Below, in pieces: positions 2,457 through 56,247 of a stretch of 56,247 nucleotides of DNA (positions are counted from its first letter, which is position 1; the number at the start of each line of letters is the position of its first letter). The stretch lies in the IMG/VR virus record IMGVR_UViG_3300012349_000002, positions 1 through 56,247 of that record; one strand, 5' to 3'. Origin of the DNA: a virus. Position numbers and translations under genes: made by a program. The notes under the pieces are model-generated. The model ran no database searches, was not told the DNA's origin, and was given only the letters and a program-made list of their open reading frames with translations.

Positions 2457-2908
2457 GCACATCAAGCAAAGAAGAGGCAAGAAAGCTACTACAAAAAGAA
2501 GGCGAGGTTTATACGTGCGGAACCGGATTCAATCCTAAAAATGAAGAAACAGGTGTGACGACATTTAAGGGTGTATTACCTGCACAGCCGCAGGAGCAAC
2601 TTCCACCGGATGGACGCGAGTTTTATCGTCGCCTAGGACGTGGCGAAAAAGTGATTCTCGGCGACGTTTATATCGGCTCGCAATTTCAGCTTATTGCGGC
2701 AAACCCTTACAACGACAGAGTTGTAGCTGAGGGTAAAAACGAAGGGGAAGGAAAGGGTCCAGCAGTCATTTTCTTTCGGCCAGTTCAACCACCCGCACAG
2801 CCGCAGGAACTAGCCCAACTCGGAGAAAGGGAAATTACCACAGGAGCCATAATCATCGTATTTCTGTGTGTCGCTTGTGGCGCGGCGATTTATAAAGGCT
2901 GGCTATGA
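2453..2908 (+). CDS. Membrane-anchored hypothetical protein, 151 aa
   Basis: Start taken as TTG 2453, which overlaps the SSB stop as TTGA; no closer ATG exists in frame. The N-terminal ~125 residues are soluble, with Pro/Gln linkers (PAQPQE occurs twice). The C-terminus is a single hydrophobic helix (GAIIIVFLCVACGAAIY) ending in KGWL. Predicted topology is a C-terminal tail anchor in the inner membrane. Function unknown. Its stop overlaps the nuclease start. Confidence 0.55.
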   Translation: MSTSSKEEARKLLQKEGEVYTCGTGFNPKNEETGVTTFKGVLPAQPQEQLPPDGREFYRRLGRGEKVILGDVYIGSQFQLIAANPYNDRVVAEGKNEGEGKGPAVIFFRPVQPPAQPQELAQLGEREITTGAIIIVFLCVACGAAIYKGWL

Positions 2909-3753
2909 CTGAAGTATTGACTGCACAGGAGAAAACACGTGAGGGGCCAGGGATACCCTCCGAGGCGATGCATTGGTACACCCGCAAAGGGCAACCAATG
3001 TATGAGGTTCAAGGCAAAAACGGCAAGATGCGCCCTACCACCTTAGCCGATGCGCGCAAGCTTGATCTTGTTCCCGGCTACAGCACTATTGCGAAACAAG
3101 TCTGGAATTTCGGGCTGCTCCGCTACATGAAAAAAGAGGTGGCGATGAGCGCGCTTACAATCCCGAGAATTGACGATGAGAATGACGAAGCGTTCATAGA
3201 TAGAATCATCGAGGAAGGCGGAGAACATGCGCGTTTGGCTGCTGAACGCGGTACATCTTTGCACAAAGCGATTGCGGATTATCATGTTACTGGGCGATGC
3301 GCGCCGGAATGGATAGAGCATATAAAAGCTGTTAACGCCGCGATGGAACAATACGGTATCGACGTTGCGGCGGGCAGAGCAGAAGTAAGCTTTGCGTCCC
3401 AACTAGGATATGGCGGCAAAGTCGATCTGCACAGCGATACAATCGGAGTTTGGGATTTTAAGACCAAAGAGAAGATCGACGACGAGAAACAACTCGTCTA
3501 CGACAATCACATTATGCAATGCGCCGCTTACGGGTTTGGACTGTTTGGCAAGCCTAGTGACATCTTCGGTCACACGCCTTCTCTCAAAATCGAGAAACCT
3601 TTCCCCGCCGGGAACGTTTTTATCGGCGTCGAAGACGAACAAGTGCGCATATTCGAGCACGAGTGGAACGATCTGCGCAATGGATTCTACATGTTCAAAA
3701 ACTTGTTGGAATATTGGGAGCGCAGCAAGAAATTCGGGCCGTACGCGAAATGA
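2905..3753 (+). CDS. PD-(D/E)XK exonuclease, RecB/Cas4-like
   Basis: The 282-residue protein shows the family signature in order: RGTSLHKAI (about 115-123), GGKVDLH (170-176) with the metal-binding Asp, DFKTKEK (184-190) as the (D/E)XK motif, and a downstream Q-x3-AYG helix (205-210). These motifs are typical of phage RecB-like/PDDEXK_1 exonucleases acting in recombination or end processing. It follows the SSB-like gene and starts on an ATGA overlap, so the two are probably co-translated. No Cys cluster for an Fe-S site is evident, which argues against a full Cas4. Confidence 0.75.
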   Translation: MTEVLTAQEKTREGPGIPSEAMHWYTRKGQPMYEVQGKNGKMRPTTLADARKLDLVPGYSTIAKQVWNFGLLRYMKKEVAMSALTIPRIDDENDEAFIDRIIEEGGEHARLAAERGTSLHKAIADYHVTGRCAPEWIEHIKAVNAAMEQYGIDVAAGRAEVSFASQLGYGGKVDLHSDTIGVWDFKTKEKIDDEKQLVYDNHIMQCAAYGFGLFGKPSDIFGHTPSLKIEKPFPAGNVFIGVEDEQVRIFEHEWNDLRNGFYMFKNLLEYWERSKKFGPYAK

Positions 3754-5725: not shown

Positions 5726-6003
5726 AAAGTAAACATCGAAGCTATATAAGACGACAGCAGCGCGCGGTTAGCTGCGAACATTATTGGTTCTATGAGAGTT
5801 TAATCTGGCAAGCACGAGATGGCCGCGATGAAGTCGCAGTGGGCCGCTACTGCGCGAAATGCAGCAAGATGCAGACAGCCGTCGCACGTAACTGGTACGC
5901 TATACCAAAATCTTACGTCGATATGCGGGAAACCTTAGAGAAATCAATAAGTAACCACAGAATTATGGCGGCGAAAATTTCTGAAAATAAATCTTGCCAG
6001 TGA
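5722..6003 (+). CDS. Zinc-knuckle hypothetical protein, 93 aa
   Basis: ATG 5722 overlaps the previous TGA. The N-terminus is basic (KSKHRSYIRRQQRA); CEH near residue 17 and CAKCSK near residue 46 could bind one zinc. The rest is helical. No family recognised. About 26 bases separate its stop from the initiator gene. Confidence 0.5.
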   Translation: MKSKHRSYIRRQQRAVSCEHYWFYESLIWQARDGRDEVAVGRYCAKCSKMQTAVARNWYAIPKSYVDMRETLEKSISNHRIMAAKISENKSCQ

Positions 6004-6029
6004 TTGACGAATACTGTATTTGACCAGTG

Positions 6030-7040
6030 ATGTTCGCGAAGGTCTTTGAACAAATTTTCGATTCATCCATCGCCGAAGATTACAATTGCCGCCGAATGTT
6101 CATGGACTTGCTTGTGCTCGCCGATTCGACCGGAGCCGTCGATATGACACCGGAGGCCATCTCGCGACGTACGAATGTCCCGGTCGAAGAAGTTGTCAAA
6201 TATGTCAAAGAATTATGTCAACCCGATGCAAAGAGCAGATCGAAGCTCGAAGAAGGCAAACGATTGGTGCCATTGGATTCGAATCGAGACTGGGGCTGGA
6301 AGATCGTAAATTACGTTCATTATCGTAAGATTCGTGACGAAGCTGCTCGCAGAGAATACTTTAGAGATAAACAGCGAGAACACAGAATTCGCGAGAAGAA
6401 AGGCAAGAAACTGCCATCCGCCAATCTAAAAACCCGGATCGACGGGTTCATCTACTACGCCCAATCTGGTAATCAAATAAAGATCGGTTACAGCAATAAC
6501 CCACTCAATAGGATCGCAGAGATGAAAGTAGCGTCTCCCGACATAAAACTTTTGGCTGTTGAAAAAACCGGGCAGGATGTCGAGGGGGAAAGACATCGGA
6601 GATTCAAGGCGATTCATATTGCTGGAGAATGGTTTAAGGCGGATAAAGAACTTATGGACTTTATCTTATCCCTGCCCGTATTTGACAGAGTGTTGACAAA
6701 AGTTGACAACAATGGACAGGTGTTGACCCCTCCTTCTCCTTCTTCTTCTGCTTTATTCTGGGAAGAGTTAAAGAGAAACCCTCTTTATACTGGAGTCGAA
6801 ATTGACCGGGAATTGGAGAAGGCAAAACAGTGGTGTCGCCGAAAGGGAAGACGACTTACGCAAAGGTTTTTCGAGAATTGGTTGAGCAAGGCTGATCGCG
6901 TTCTCGTCGATGTTCCCGTAAAGAAGAAGCAATATCCCAAGTTCGCTCCTGATCTCACTGACGAACAGATCGCAAAAAACAAAGCAGTAATCGCGACAGA
7001 GAAAGCGAAGCTGCTAGAGAAATTTAAAATGCCAGTATGA
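6030..7040 (+). CDS. Replisome-organizer-type initiator with an inserted GIY-YIG (T5orf172-like) domain
   Basis: Residues ~1-115 match the winged-helix N-terminus of phage replication organizers (YNCRRMFMDLLVLADSTG, TPEAISRRTNVPVEEVVKYV, then a basic tail). Residues ~133-213 form a GIY-YIG-type domain of the T5orf172/Mug113 class (DGFIYYAQSG, QIKIGYS-x2-P-x-RI, then GEWF). A linker encoded by five phased 10-bp repeats follows. The C-terminal ~80 residues match the terminal region of DnaD-like initiators. The protein probably binds its own origin and recruits the host helicase loader. GTG 6027 directly before ATG 6030 is an alternative start. Confidence 0.65.
   Translation: MFAKVFEQIFDSSIAEDYNCRRMFMDLLVLADSTGAVDMTPEAISRRTNVPVEEVVKYVKELCQPDAKSRSKLEEGKRLVPLDSNRDWGWKIVNYVHYRKIRDEAARREYFRDKQREHRIREKKGKKLPSANLKTRIDGFIYYAQSGNQIKIGYSNNPLNRIAEMKVASPDIKLLAVEKTGQDVEGERHRRFKAIHIAGEWFKADKELMDFILSLPVFDRVLTKVDNNGQVLTPPSPSSSALFWEELKRNPLYTGVEIDRELEKAKQWCRRKGRRLTQRFFENWLSKADRVLVDVPVKKKQYPKFAPDLTDEQIAKNKAVIATEKAKLLEKFKMPV
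6681..6730 (+). repeat. Five phased 10-bp iterons, candidate replication origin
   Basis: Five consecutive 10-mers share the core TTGACA: tttgacagag, tgttgacaaa, agttgacaac, aatggacagg, tgttgacccc. They sit inside the initiator gene between its GIY-YIG-like and C-terminal domains, followed by a polypyrimidine run (6728-6749). Iterons inside the initiator gene are the known layout of the lambda O origin and related phages. Confidence 0.65.
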
Positions 7041-7255
7041 AATCCTCGATTGACCTTGGCTTGGCTATCTCCGGCCTGTACGCGCGAAAAGGCGTGCCTA
7101 TGACGCACGACGAGATTGCGGCCTATTGCGGATGTTCTTGGCAACGAATCTGGCAGATTGAACAGCGCGGGCTCCGCAAACTTCGCAATCGCCTCCACTT
7201 TCATAAGAGTGATCCTGAGGTGCGGGAACTAATCGAAAGTCTACAGGGGCGATGA
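7037..7255 (+). CDS. Sigma-70 region-4-like DNA-binding protein, 72 aa
   Basis: Almost the whole protein is one helix-turn-helix of the sigma region 4 kind: MTHDEIAAYCGCSWQRIWQI then EQRGLRKLRNRL. This compares with the ERIRQIE-x3-LRKLR pattern that contacts the -35 element in sigma factors. No region 2 is present, so it is not a complete sigma factor. It could reprogram host RNA polymerase or act as a simple repressor. Translation is coupled to the initiator by an ATGA overlap. Confidence 0.65.
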   Translation: MKSSIDLGLAISGLYARKGVPMTHDEIAAYCGCSWQRIWQIEQRGLRKLRNRLHFHKSDPEVRELIESLQGR

Positions 7256-7431
7256 AACTTTGCAAAATTTGCTGTAGGGAGACAAATATGTTGTTCAACG
7301 TTGCAATGCGCAAAACGTCGATTTGTGAGTTCTGCGCCAATCAGATCGCATGGCAACGAACCGAAGATTTGATTTGCAAAGACAATGCCCGACTTAATAA
7401 TTCGCAATTTTTAGCAAAATTACCGCGATGA
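7252..7431 (+). CDS. Small zinc-binding protein, 59 aa
   Basis: ATG 7252 overlaps the upstream stop and its own TGA (7429-7431) overlaps the next ATG. Cys pairs KLCKICC near the start and CEFC in the middle fit a four-Cys zinc ribbon. Function unknown; small zinc ribbons recur along this operon. Confidence 0.5.
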   Translation: MKLCKICCRETNMLFNVAMRKTSICEFCANQIAWQRTEDLICKDNARLNNSQFLAKLPR

Positions 7432-7850
7432 ACGACCTTCTCAGTATATTCCCCCGTGCCTCTAAATCATGCCAAGAGGCCAACCCCGCTATCTTGACCC
7501 TCCCGGACAATAAAAACGATTTTACGGAGGGGGGTGGCAAGAAACGGCATCAAATGAACAAGACTGAAGCCGAATTTGCCCTAATCTTGGAAGCCATGAA
7601 GCGGAAGGGCGAGATTCTACGTTACGAATACGAGGGAATCACGCTTCGTTGGGCTGATATGCGGTACACGCCGGACTTCATCTGTTTTTCGGTCAACGAT
7701 CCATGGTGGTCGATCAAGTTGATCGAAGTCAAAGGCGCGCACATTTGGGATCGGGACATCGTACGGTTCAAGGGCGCCAGAGCTTACTGGCCGGAGTTCA
7801 GCTTTGAGCTTCATCAAAAAAAGGGAGGACAATGGACGAGGATAATGTAG
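7428..7850 (+). CDS. PD-(D/E)XK endonuclease, DUF1064/VRR-like, 140 aa
   Basis: Core motifs are MNKTEAEF (43-50), YTPDFICF (80-87) and LIEVKGAH (98-105), then a Lys helix (DIVRFKGARAYWP). The order E...PD...E-x-K matches the small phage resolvase-like family often placed in replication modules. The enzyme would cut branched or recombination intermediates. The coupled ATG at 7428 adds a ~42-residue leader containing the 25-bp repeat found again at 55081; an internal ATG at 7554 gives exactly the conserved domain and may be the original start. Confidence 0.65.
   Translation: MNDLLSIFPRASKSCQEANPAILTLPDNKNDFTEGGGKKRHQMNKTEAEFALILEAMKRKGEILRYEYEGITLRWADMRYTPDFICFSVNDPWWSIKLIEVKGAHIWDRDIVRFKGARAYWPEFSFELHQKKGGQWTRIM
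7485..7509 (+). repeat. 25-bp direct repeat, copy 1
   Basis: Twenty-five bases starting CCCGCTATCTTGACCC are identical at 7485-7509 and 55081-55105. This copy is inside the N-terminal extension of the PD-(D/E)XK gene; the other lies in the non-coding control region. Flanks differ on both sides. Confidence 0.85.
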
Positions 7851-8597: not shown

Positions 8598-9203
8598 ATG
8601 AGAGTTTTGGTCGCTTGTGAGTTTTCTGGCATTGTCCGGGATGCTTTTTCTAAAAGAGGACACGAGGCATGGTCATGCGATTTACTTCCGAGCGAACGGG
8701 ACGGGCGACATATTCAAGACGACGTATTGCTTCACTTGGAGGATGGCTGGGACTTGATGATCGCGCATCCCCCATGCACGTATTTAGCGTCTAGTGGTCT
8801 GCATTGGAACAAGCGCGTCGCCGGTCGGGACGAAAAAACGCACGAGGCGATGCTGTTTGTTCTTAATCTGATCGGCGAGGGATTTATAGCTCACGGAATT
8901 CCAAAAATTGCTTTGGAAAATCCCGTTGGATGTATTTCCTCGAAGTACCGAAAACCAGATCAGACGATTCAACCTTGGCAATTCGGCCATCCCGAAAGCA
9001 AAAAAACATGCCTTTGGCTTAAAGGACTTCCGCCATTGAAACCCACCGATTTGCTTTTACCCAAGAATGGAGACTGGAATCGCGGGTGGGACAATCAAAC
9101 CGCCAGTGGTCAGAATAAACTTGGCCCATCACCAACTCGCGCCAAAGAACGCAGTAGAACGTACCAAGGAATCGCCGATGCAATGGCAAATCAATGGGGA
9201 TAA
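8598..9203 (+). CDS. DNA cytosine-methyltransferase-like protein, 201 aa
   Basis: The N-terminus MRVLVACEFSG is a Rossmann-type SAM-binding start. AHPPCTYL (56-63) resembles motif IV (PPC), and ALENPVG (105-111) resembles the ENV motif. These belong to a short phage/prophage family related to C5-cytosine methyltransferases. At 201 residues it lacks an obvious target-recognition domain, so it may be a reduced or specialised enzyme protecting phage DNA. The Lar-like gene nearby fits an anti-restriction block. It is preceded by pseudoknot element B. Confidence 0.6.
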   Translation: MRVLVACEFSGIVRDAFSKRGHEAWSCDLLPSERDGRHIQDDVLLHLEDGWDLMIAHPPCTYLASSGLHWNKRVAGRDEKTHEAMLFVLNLIGEGFIAHGIPKIALENPVGCISSKYRKPDQTIQPWQFGHPESKKTCLWLKGLPPLKPTDLLLPKNGDWNRGWDNQTASGQNKLGPSPTRAKERSRTYQGIADAMANQWG

Positions 9204-51747: not shown

Positions 51748-53364
51748 ATGCCAATAGACGACATAGTATCCGTAAACGTCACCACGCCGGAAGGCATCCA
51801 GAACGTTATTGTTCAGGGAAACGTCGGAGGCACTGGACCAACTGGACCAACCGGGCCTACCGGGCCAACGGGGCCAGCTGGAGCAGATGGATTAAACACT
51901 CAAGCGGTTTACGTCAACTACCTGTTCTCAACGACGACAACGGATTCCGACCCGGGCAATGGCAATCTTCGTCTGAACAACGCCACGCAATTATCGTCGA
52001 CGGTTATCCGCGCCGATTTGATTGACGTTAACTCGCAGACCGTGACTGCGGTGTTGGATAACCTCGATGCGAGCACTAGTACCGTCAAAGGTTACATTAG
52101 GCTGTATAAAACTGATGATCCTACCAAGTGGATAGAGTTCACCCTATCTTCGCGAGCGTCTCCGAGCGGTTACAGAAATCTTACGGTAACTGAGGTTGCC
52201 GGTAGCGGGAGCAATCCCTTTGCTAATCTCGACCCGGTAACGCTGGTATTTTCGCGCACAGGCGACGCAGGCGTAGGCGCGACAGGCCCAACGGGCGGCA
52301 CCGGTGGAACGGGTGGAACAGGTGGAACGGGCCCGGCTGGCGCGACGGGACCAACCGGAGGAACCGGAGGTACCGGAGGAACTGGAGGCACGGGTGGAAC
52401 CGGAGGAACAGGCGGGGCTGGTCCAACTGGGCCAACCGGGCCAATGGCTGCGTCCGGTGCGGATGTTAGCAATTCTGCGACTCAAAGCATATCCGCGAGC
52501 ACGGATACGGCGCTCACGTTCGACACTGAAACGACTGATACAGACGGTTATCATTCGATTGTTTCTGCAACATCCAAGCTAACCGTCCCAACTGGTCAGG
52601 GTAACGCTTTCTTTACGATCACAGGCTGGTTCACGTTTGCGGCGTCGGTTGGCGGAACCGAGCGCACCGCAAAGATCAGGCTCAACGGAACCACGATAAT
52701 TGCCGAGCAGACTGAGCAAGGATTGGTCAATGCCAATCTGGACATGAACATTGCCAAGGTAATCAAGCTCGCCGACGGCGATTACGTCGAGCTAGTTGCC
52801 TTCCAGGACAGCGTAGGTTCTATCAATGTTCAGACCGGTGCTTCATTTTCGATAGCGCGCGAGGGTGGCCCTATCGGAGCCACGGGACCGACCGGCGGTA
52901 CCGGGGGTACTGGTGGTACCGGACCAGCAGGCGGCGGAACTTTGTCGCAGGTCAGCGGATCGGATTTTACTACGAGCAGTACTACGCTTGTGGATATTAC
53001 GGGATTAACCTTTGCGGCATCTGCTAACACCAAATACGAAGTGGACGTTTTGTTGACTGTTCAAAGCAGCACCTCGGCGGGATTAAAGCCATCTATCGCA
53101 TTTAGCGCGGCTGGCGCTACCGGGCAGTGGCAAGGACTGGCCAACTCTACAAGCGGTGGCGTTGTAGCGGGCTTGGCGCAAGTGATCGGAACGGCCAATA
53201 CCGCTGCTGTTATTACTACTGCGGCAACAACGGGAGGAATTTGGATGAAGACTATTGTAAATGTGGGTGCAAACGCTGGAAACATAACTGCCCAAATACT
53301 TAAGGTCACTAGCGGAACGGCCACTGTTTACATAGGTTCGAGGATGACGGTCACGACATTGTGA
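51748..53364 (+). CDS. Collagen-like tail fibre, 538 aa
   Basis: Short N-terminal domain (DDIVSVNVTTPEGIQNVIVQ), then Gly-x-y repeats (GPTGPTGPTGP at ~28-45), a beta domain, a second longer Gly-x-y block rich in GGT/GPT (~178-235), then a C-terminal beta region with a third short GGT block. Collagen-like triple helices form the shaft of many phage fibres; the beta domains probably trimerise or bind the receptor. It is followed by a GT4 transferase that could glycosylate its Thr residues. Confidence 0.7.
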   Translation: MPIDDIVSVNVTTPEGIQNVIVQGNVGGTGPTGPTGPTGPTGPAGADGLNTQAVYVNYLFSTTTTDSDPGNGNLRLNNATQLSSTVIRADLIDVNSQTVTAVLDNLDASTSTVKGYIRLYKTDDPTKWIEFTLSSRASPSGYRNLTVTEVAGSGSNPFANLDPVTLVFSRTGDAGVGATGPTGGTGGTGGTGGTGPAGATGPTGGTGGTGGTGGTGGTGGTGGAGPTGPTGPMAASGADVSNSATQSISASTDTALTFDTETTDTDGYHSIVSATSKLTVPTGQGNAFFTITGWFTFAASVGGTERTAKIRLNGTTIIAEQTEQGLVNANLDMNIAKVIKLADGDYVELVAFQDSVGSINVQTGASFSIAREGGPIGATGPTGGTGGTGGTGPAGGGTLSQVSGSDFTTSSTTLVDITGLTFAASANTKYEVDVLLTVQSSTSAGLKPSIAFSAAGATGQWQGLANSTSGGVVAGLAQVIGTANTAAVITTAATTGGIWMKTIVNVGANAGNITAQILKVTSGTATVYIGSRMTVTTL

Positions 53365-56047: not shown

Positions 56048-56247
56048 ATGCAAAACACACAGACAAACACAACGGCGCAGGCGCAGCCAGATAATAGCGC
56101 CAAGTGGCAGGATATTCATTTTGTCCTGAACAAAACACAGCAAGAAAGAGATGCAGCATTGAGCGAAAATCTTAAACTCCAAGAAGCTAACGGCGACGCT
56201 GCGGCAGAATATGTTCGGTTGATAGCTCAAATAGATTACGAAAAAGG
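56048..56247 (+). CDS. 5' part of the join-crossing coiled-coil gene
   Basis: ATG 56048 opens MQNTQTNTTAQAQPDNSAKW and is open at the window end; the frame continues at base 1-274 across the join (56124/1). Bases 56125-56247 repeat 1-123. The N-terminus is Gln/Thr/Asn-rich and probably disordered. Confidence 0.75.
   Translation, partial: MQNTQTNTTAQAQPDNSAKWQDIHFVLNKTQQERDAALSENLKLQEANGDAAAEYVRLIAQIDYEK
56125..56247. repeat. Terminal direct repeat, right copy
   Basis: Identical to bases 1-123; see the left copy. Confidence 0.95.

Follow-up and report, generated by a model that had tools for sequence, protein, structure and literature searches.

A helically phased box array as a candidate replication origin within a putative initiator gene of an uncultured phage

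Does a short row of repeats inside a phage gene mark the site at which the phage begins to replicate its DNA? The question is raised by a gene in a viral sequence of 56,247 nucleotides (IMG/VR record IMGVR_UViG_3300012349_000002, positions 1 to 56,247), called the window here. A first-pass annotation had described five consecutive decamers sharing TTGACA at 6681-6730, within a replication-initiator gene, and had proposed that they mark a likely phage origin. After comparing the locus with its relatives and with described phages, we consider it probable, on the strength of sequence comparisons, that this is a helically phased, intragenic, self-recognized phage (theta) replication origin, which is the best reading of the data.

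A phased box array and an adjoining pyrimidine tract

The features of the locus are collected in Table 1. Five boxes are indeed present, but only three of them are exact copies of TTGACA, the other two having one mismatch each, and the spacing is 11, 10, 10, and 10 bp. Scored as a 5-box array with 10-11 bp spacing, they give 28 of 30 matches to their own consensus. This is the best score in the window; the runner-up reaches 24, and the top score in 60 first-order Markov simulations of the window was 25. When codons were shuffled synonymously within the gene, with the protein kept, the 4-box score of 23/24 was reached by none of 100 shuffles (z 5.1). Taken alone, the word TTGACA is no more frequent in the window than expected (30 copies vs 32), and it is the arrangement of the boxes, not the word count, that is unusual. 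The earlier argument that the periodicity cannot come from amino-acid repeats holds up well, since the box starts fall in phases 1, 0, 1, 2, and 0 relative to the reading frame and all three codon phases are used.

The pyrimidine stretch that had been noted after the repeats was also recovered and exceeds synonymous shuffles (p 0.013). With an AT content of 54-60% in 50-bp steps over 6700-6799, this DNA is pyrimidine-rich and not notably AT-rich. Two other candidate signals were rejected. Folding of either strand was no better than that of shuffles (z -0.5 and -0.6), which does not favor a hairpin or structured single-stranded DNA. Three minus-strand TTGACA words at 6194-6221 were judged coincidental because they are spaced 9 and 13 bp apart, lie within codons of the N-terminal domain, and are not kept in the relative L002.

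Table 1. Features of the candidate origin and of the gene that contains it (window coordinates)
Feature	Coordinates	Strand	Sequence, proposed role, or basis
Two box-like sites	6004-6025	+	TTGACG 6004-6009, TTGACC 6020-6025; possible autoregulatory operator
Replication-initiator/replisome-organizer-like gene	6030-7040	+	Open reading frame; MFAKVF start of relatives; fold and neighbors of relatives
N-terminal winged-helix domain, presumed DNA-binding	6030-6410	+	AlphaFold2 model of first ~125 residues (mean pLDDT 85); BFVD matches; 37-member alignment
MUG113/T5orf172 (GIY-YIG-like) domain	6444-6653	+	Pfam PF13455 (E 7.8e-8), PF10544 (E 6e-5)
Five TTGACA-like boxes	6682-6728	+	TTGACA 6682-6687, 6693-6698, 6703-6708; TGGACA 6713-6718; TTGACC 6723-6728; proposed initiator-binding sites
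Pyrimidine-rich tract adjoining the array	6727-6759	+	CCCCTCCTTCTCCTTCTTCTTCTGCTTTATTCT; proposed unwinding/helicase-entry element

The putative initiator gene and its domains

The gene encodes 336 amino acids from ATG 6030, and GTG 6027 is a possible alternative start; the proteins of relatives begin with MFAKVF. The model of the N-terminal domain is a fairly confident winged helix. Many of its matches among viral folds bear the name replisome organizer or replication initiator; neither of the two viral matches with E below 0.001 is so named, and the matches among PDB folds are generic winged helices. By sequence, PF09681 (Phage_rep_org_N) gave a weak match in 8 of the 37 aligned members (best 0.0016) and none in the window protein, whose N-terminal domain matched no replication-initiator family in Pfam or PHROG and no O-family in Pfam; a distant relation to the O protein is still conceivable. 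A PDB sequence search with the profile of this domain returned nothing significant, and a search for named phages close to it gave no useful match. The TIGR01714/PF09681 family is described as having a low-complexity region that mirrors DNA repeats with origin function.

The array had been placed between two protein domains. On one side this is so, the domain being MUG113/T5orf172 (aa ~140-209, counted from GTG 6027), which lies above the curated cut-offs of both Pfam models (33.2 bits against 22.3 for PF13455 and 23.9 bits against 20 for PF10544). What lies on the other side is the unassigned C-terminal part of the protein. The array sits in the DNA of a linker of ~30 residues that follows the MUG113 domain.

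In six relatives, the initiator gene is followed by genes with DnaB-family domains, and in L074 it is followed by an AAA+ (IstB-like) gene; replication genes downstream of the initiator gene were identified in relatives only. Neither a DnaB-type helicase (DnaB_C) nor a DNA polymerase A was found in the window, and recruitment of the host helicase is therefore presumed.

Phased arrays in related genes

Homologues were collected in scans of IMG/VR, which gave 5, 65, and 80 partly overlapping loci, and from GTDB genomes, which gave 3 more. Removal of near-identical linkers left 54, of which 49 were long enough for testing. At p <= 0.05, arrays with 10-11 bp spacing were detected in 45% of the linkers of these 49 homologues vs 0% of the N-domain and C-terminal coding stretches; at p <= 0.01, the figure for linkers was 35%. 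Spacings of 7-8, 13-14, and 16-17 bp stayed at or near background. The intermediate level at 8-9 bp (24%) is due to the 9-bp spacings used by some clades. The phased-array statistic was picked after some arrays had already been seen, and the other regions and spacings serve as the control for that choice. Strand asymmetry of the tract exceeded that of synonymous shuffles in 35% of the linkers, compared to 2% and 0% in the control regions.

The sequence of the box depends on the clade while the spacing stays at 9-11 bp. The clade near the window has TTGACA or TGTCAA, and the others have GTTCAA (L013-L018, L081), GTCCAA (L031, L067, L077, L082), CTCAAC (L042-L051, L091-L093), GTAACG (L039, L041, L052, L094), or GTTAAC (L073). 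Whether related phages keep the 10-bp spacing despite amino-acid change had been suggested as a check. About half of the testable homologues do have a phased array in the linker, mainly at 9-11 bp and with boxes and peptides that differ; about half of the homologues have no significant phased array by this statistic.

Several relatives show variations of their own. In L079 (3001-3400), a relative of L077, the boxes and the tract are missing while the protein stays in frame, which reflects either a deletion in nature or a collapsed assembly. L003/L023 carry a decamer array, GATGTGGACT GATGTGTACT AATGTGTACC AACGTGGAGT GATGTGAAAT, ahead of the start codon, and their linker contains the palindrome GTCCACATGTGGAC. 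L029 has a MUG113-like sequence between the N-terminal domain and the C-terminal part, with no phased array detectable.

A signal in the DNA, independent of the peptide

Other observations add to the reading-frame argument. In the close relatives L008, L010, and L012, the counterpart of the window module (boxes and tract) lies on the opposite strand, where the alignments reach z 14.0, 12.7, and 13.6, respectively; the z values for the same strand are below 1.3, and yet the N-terminal domains of these relatives are ~80% identical to that of the window on the same strand. One DNA signal thus encodes unrelated peptides, an arrangement that either an inversion or a rebuilding of the module could have produced. 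The gene of L034-L036 ends after the N-terminal domain, and similar boxes (GTCCAGTACA) and a purine tract are found beyond the stop codon; inspection by eye and a repeat search, rather than the phased-array test, picked out these boxes. Two sets of close relatives, L002/L007 (73% identical overall) and L072 (N-domain 94% identical), lack the MUG113 domain and keep the boxes and the tract, which shows that the array does not depend on this domain. The array is independent of the encoded peptide. The proposal of a likely phage origin draws its support from the arrays of relatives, the opposite-strand modules, and the boxes past the stop codon.

Known counterparts

The first-pass annotation had drawn a parallel to lambda O, whose gene holds its own origin. 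This was right in principle: oriLambda has iterons within the initiator gene and an adjoining special tract. It differs from the window in having four 18-bp iterons at 20-24 bp spacing instead of 6-bp cores at 10-11 bp, and in having an AT-rich instead of a pyrimidine-rich tract. As a positive control, our method recovered the four iterons of lambda O at 20, 24, and 23 bp (z 6.4) and gave nothing at 10-11 bp.

The nearest described case is that of the lactococcal P335 phages Tuc2009 (Rep/ORF16), TP901-1 (ORF13), and r1t (ORF11), in which the initiator gene holds its own direct-repeat origin, as proposed here for the window. The Tuc2009 record states that Rep contains the origin of replication. 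A paper devoted to the helicase of a lactococcal phage states that the proteins of TP901-1 and Tuc2009 bind regions rich in direct repeats within their own genes, which serve as the origin (PMC8965321). The Tuc2009 rep gene has four CAACCA boxes with an exact 11-bp spacing (24/24, z 5.7) and, after them, purine-rich DNA of the AGGATA/GGTTA type, and r1t has four GGAACC boxes at 11 bp. Similar arrays occur in Lj928, Brochothrix BtpYZU02, and Javan445; in TP901-1 rep, the phased-array test found no array at 10-11 bp. Like the window, Tuc2009 and r1t combine 6-bp boxes one helical turn apart with an adjoining strand-asymmetric tract. They have four boxes followed by a purine-rich tract, whereas the window has five boxes, TTGACA-like and spaced 10-11 bp, and a tract that is pyrimidine-rich on the coding strand. 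The window gene also differs from all three in its inserted MUG113 domain. Intragenic origins are known from lactococcal phages, and the array of the window most likely belongs to the same kind. What is new is a wide and divergent set of modules in which the boxes change, with some modules beyond the stop codon and some on the opposite strand.

The gene p19 of Myxococcus phage Mx8 resembles that of the window in having a MUG113 domain and GTGGAC-like boxes at a spacing of ~10 bp, with a GGAGAT repeat after them. It is annotated for replication initiation in one record, and the next gene is DnaC-like. The p19 array is not significant by synonymous shuffle (p 0.25), and it is in the MUG113 region, not in the N-terminal domain, that its sequence matches the window. 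Iteron plasmids and DnaA-box/DnaA-trio origins share only the principle with the window, that is, a repeat array beside an opening element, the plasmid Rep being a winged-helix initiator (PMC10797057). No paper describing this array family was found in a literature search in which subscription journals were thinly covered.

Boxes upstream of the initiator gene

Each of the two upstream sites in the window is one mismatch away from the box. Across 31 loci, the box of the locus's own clade has 39 exact matches in the 80 bp ahead of the start codon, compared to 8.4 after permutation of the boxes among loci. The maximum in 5,000 permutations was 23, giving a p of 0.0002 that is optimistic because related loci are not independent. 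These matches come from 17 of the 31 loci and from 4 of the 9 box classes. The recurrence of a clade's own box ahead of its gene suggests that the initiator may bind both its own promoter region and the origin.

Alternative explanations

The boxes might only regulate transcription or copy number, as an operator or titration array, with the real origin elsewhere. The upstream boxes in 17 of 31 loci speak for this, and so does the GC skew, which points elsewhere. The cumulative skew had been suggested as a check on the origin, and the check did not support it, with the minimum of the window at 46-48 kb and the maximum at 9 kb, near the candidate origin at 6.7 kb; in lambda and Tuc2009, the minimum of the detrended skew lies near the known origin. 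Since the skew tracks gene strand in the window (r = 0.51), this evidence is weak, adverse to an origin at 6.7 kb yet inconclusive as a locator. Against a purely regulatory role, the second array is coupled to a strand-asymmetric tract, which is the anatomy of the reported Tuc2009 origin, and no sigma-70 promoter-like site was found in 5800-7100. We regard this alternative as unlikely. The lack of such a site also bears on the idea that the array is a cluster of promoter hexamers. TTGACA is the consensus of the sigma-70 -35 element. The boxes have no -10 partner, and relatives have GTTCAA, GTCCAA, or GTAACG in their place, so we rejected the promoter reading, which has hardly any probability left.

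A disordered linker peptide of low complexity might have given rise to the repeats as a by-product. This is very unlikely, although L042, L043, and their kin have 9-bp spacings, which short peptide repeats could produce. For the window, this explanation is already largely refuted by boxes in all three codon phases, by a score that synonymous shuffles never reach, by an opposite-strand module that encodes a different peptide, and by similar elements beyond a stop codon. Another possibility is that the inserted MUG113/T5orf172 domain recognizes the array or left it as a scar, as would be the case with the target of a homing endonuclease. Only ~30 bp separate the end of the domain from the array, and a homing endonuclease is among the PHROG matches (E 0.00086), but the boxes and the tract are still there in L002/L007 and L072, which lack the domain, and we consider such an origin for the array extremely improbable.

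Proposed mechanism and significance

If the array and the adjoining pyrimidine tract are a replication origin that lies in the linker of the phage's own initiator gene, the N-terminal winged helix would bind the boxes of ~6 bp on a single face of the DNA, with one box in each helical turn. The row of bound initiators may then strain or wrap the DNA and open the neighboring strand-asymmetric tract, after which the initiator would bring in the replicative helicase, presumably that of the host. The box-like sites upstream of the start codon would probably allow the initiator to regulate its own expression. We infer these steps of binding, melting, helicase loading, and autoregulation from the layout of the locus.

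A broader idea can be put forward tentatively, with somewhat more doubt than conviction. Many phage replisome-organizer genes may carry a portable, invertible origin cassette made of 4-5 short boxes fixed to the helical repeat (10-11 bp) and a strand-asymmetric tract, often built of hexanucleotide repeats, in place of the classical AT-rich unwinding element. The box sequence would co-change by clade with the upstream operators, so that a code of protein-DNA recognition could be read from the cassettes, and the DNA signal would shape the linker peptide, not the reverse.

For a group of uncultured phages, the locus offers an origin of replication that can be put to the test. Together with its relatives it provides a natural series of origin modules that keep the helical spacing but differ in box sequence, orientation, and coding context. 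This series could be used to test how initiators choose their sites and how a tract that is not AT-rich could be opened, and to ask why the sequence of a protein linker may be dictated by a DNA signal. It would also supply a simple sequence rule by which phage origins could be located in metagenomes.

Other features of the window

A perfect terminal direct repeat of 123 bp (1-123 and 56125-56247) agrees with a genome of 56,124 bp that is circular or redundant and fits the circle of this size that the first-pass annotation had assumed. Neighboring genes at 7428-7850, 8598-9203, and 2905-3753 match phrog_190 (Holliday junction resolvase), phrog_757 (DNA methyltransferase), and phrog_298 (exonuclease), respectively. 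The large open reading frame at 51748-53364 contains collagen-like Gly-X-Y coding repeats (TGPTGPTGP...), with tandem repeats at 51832-52922, and probably encodes a virion fiber or tail protein.
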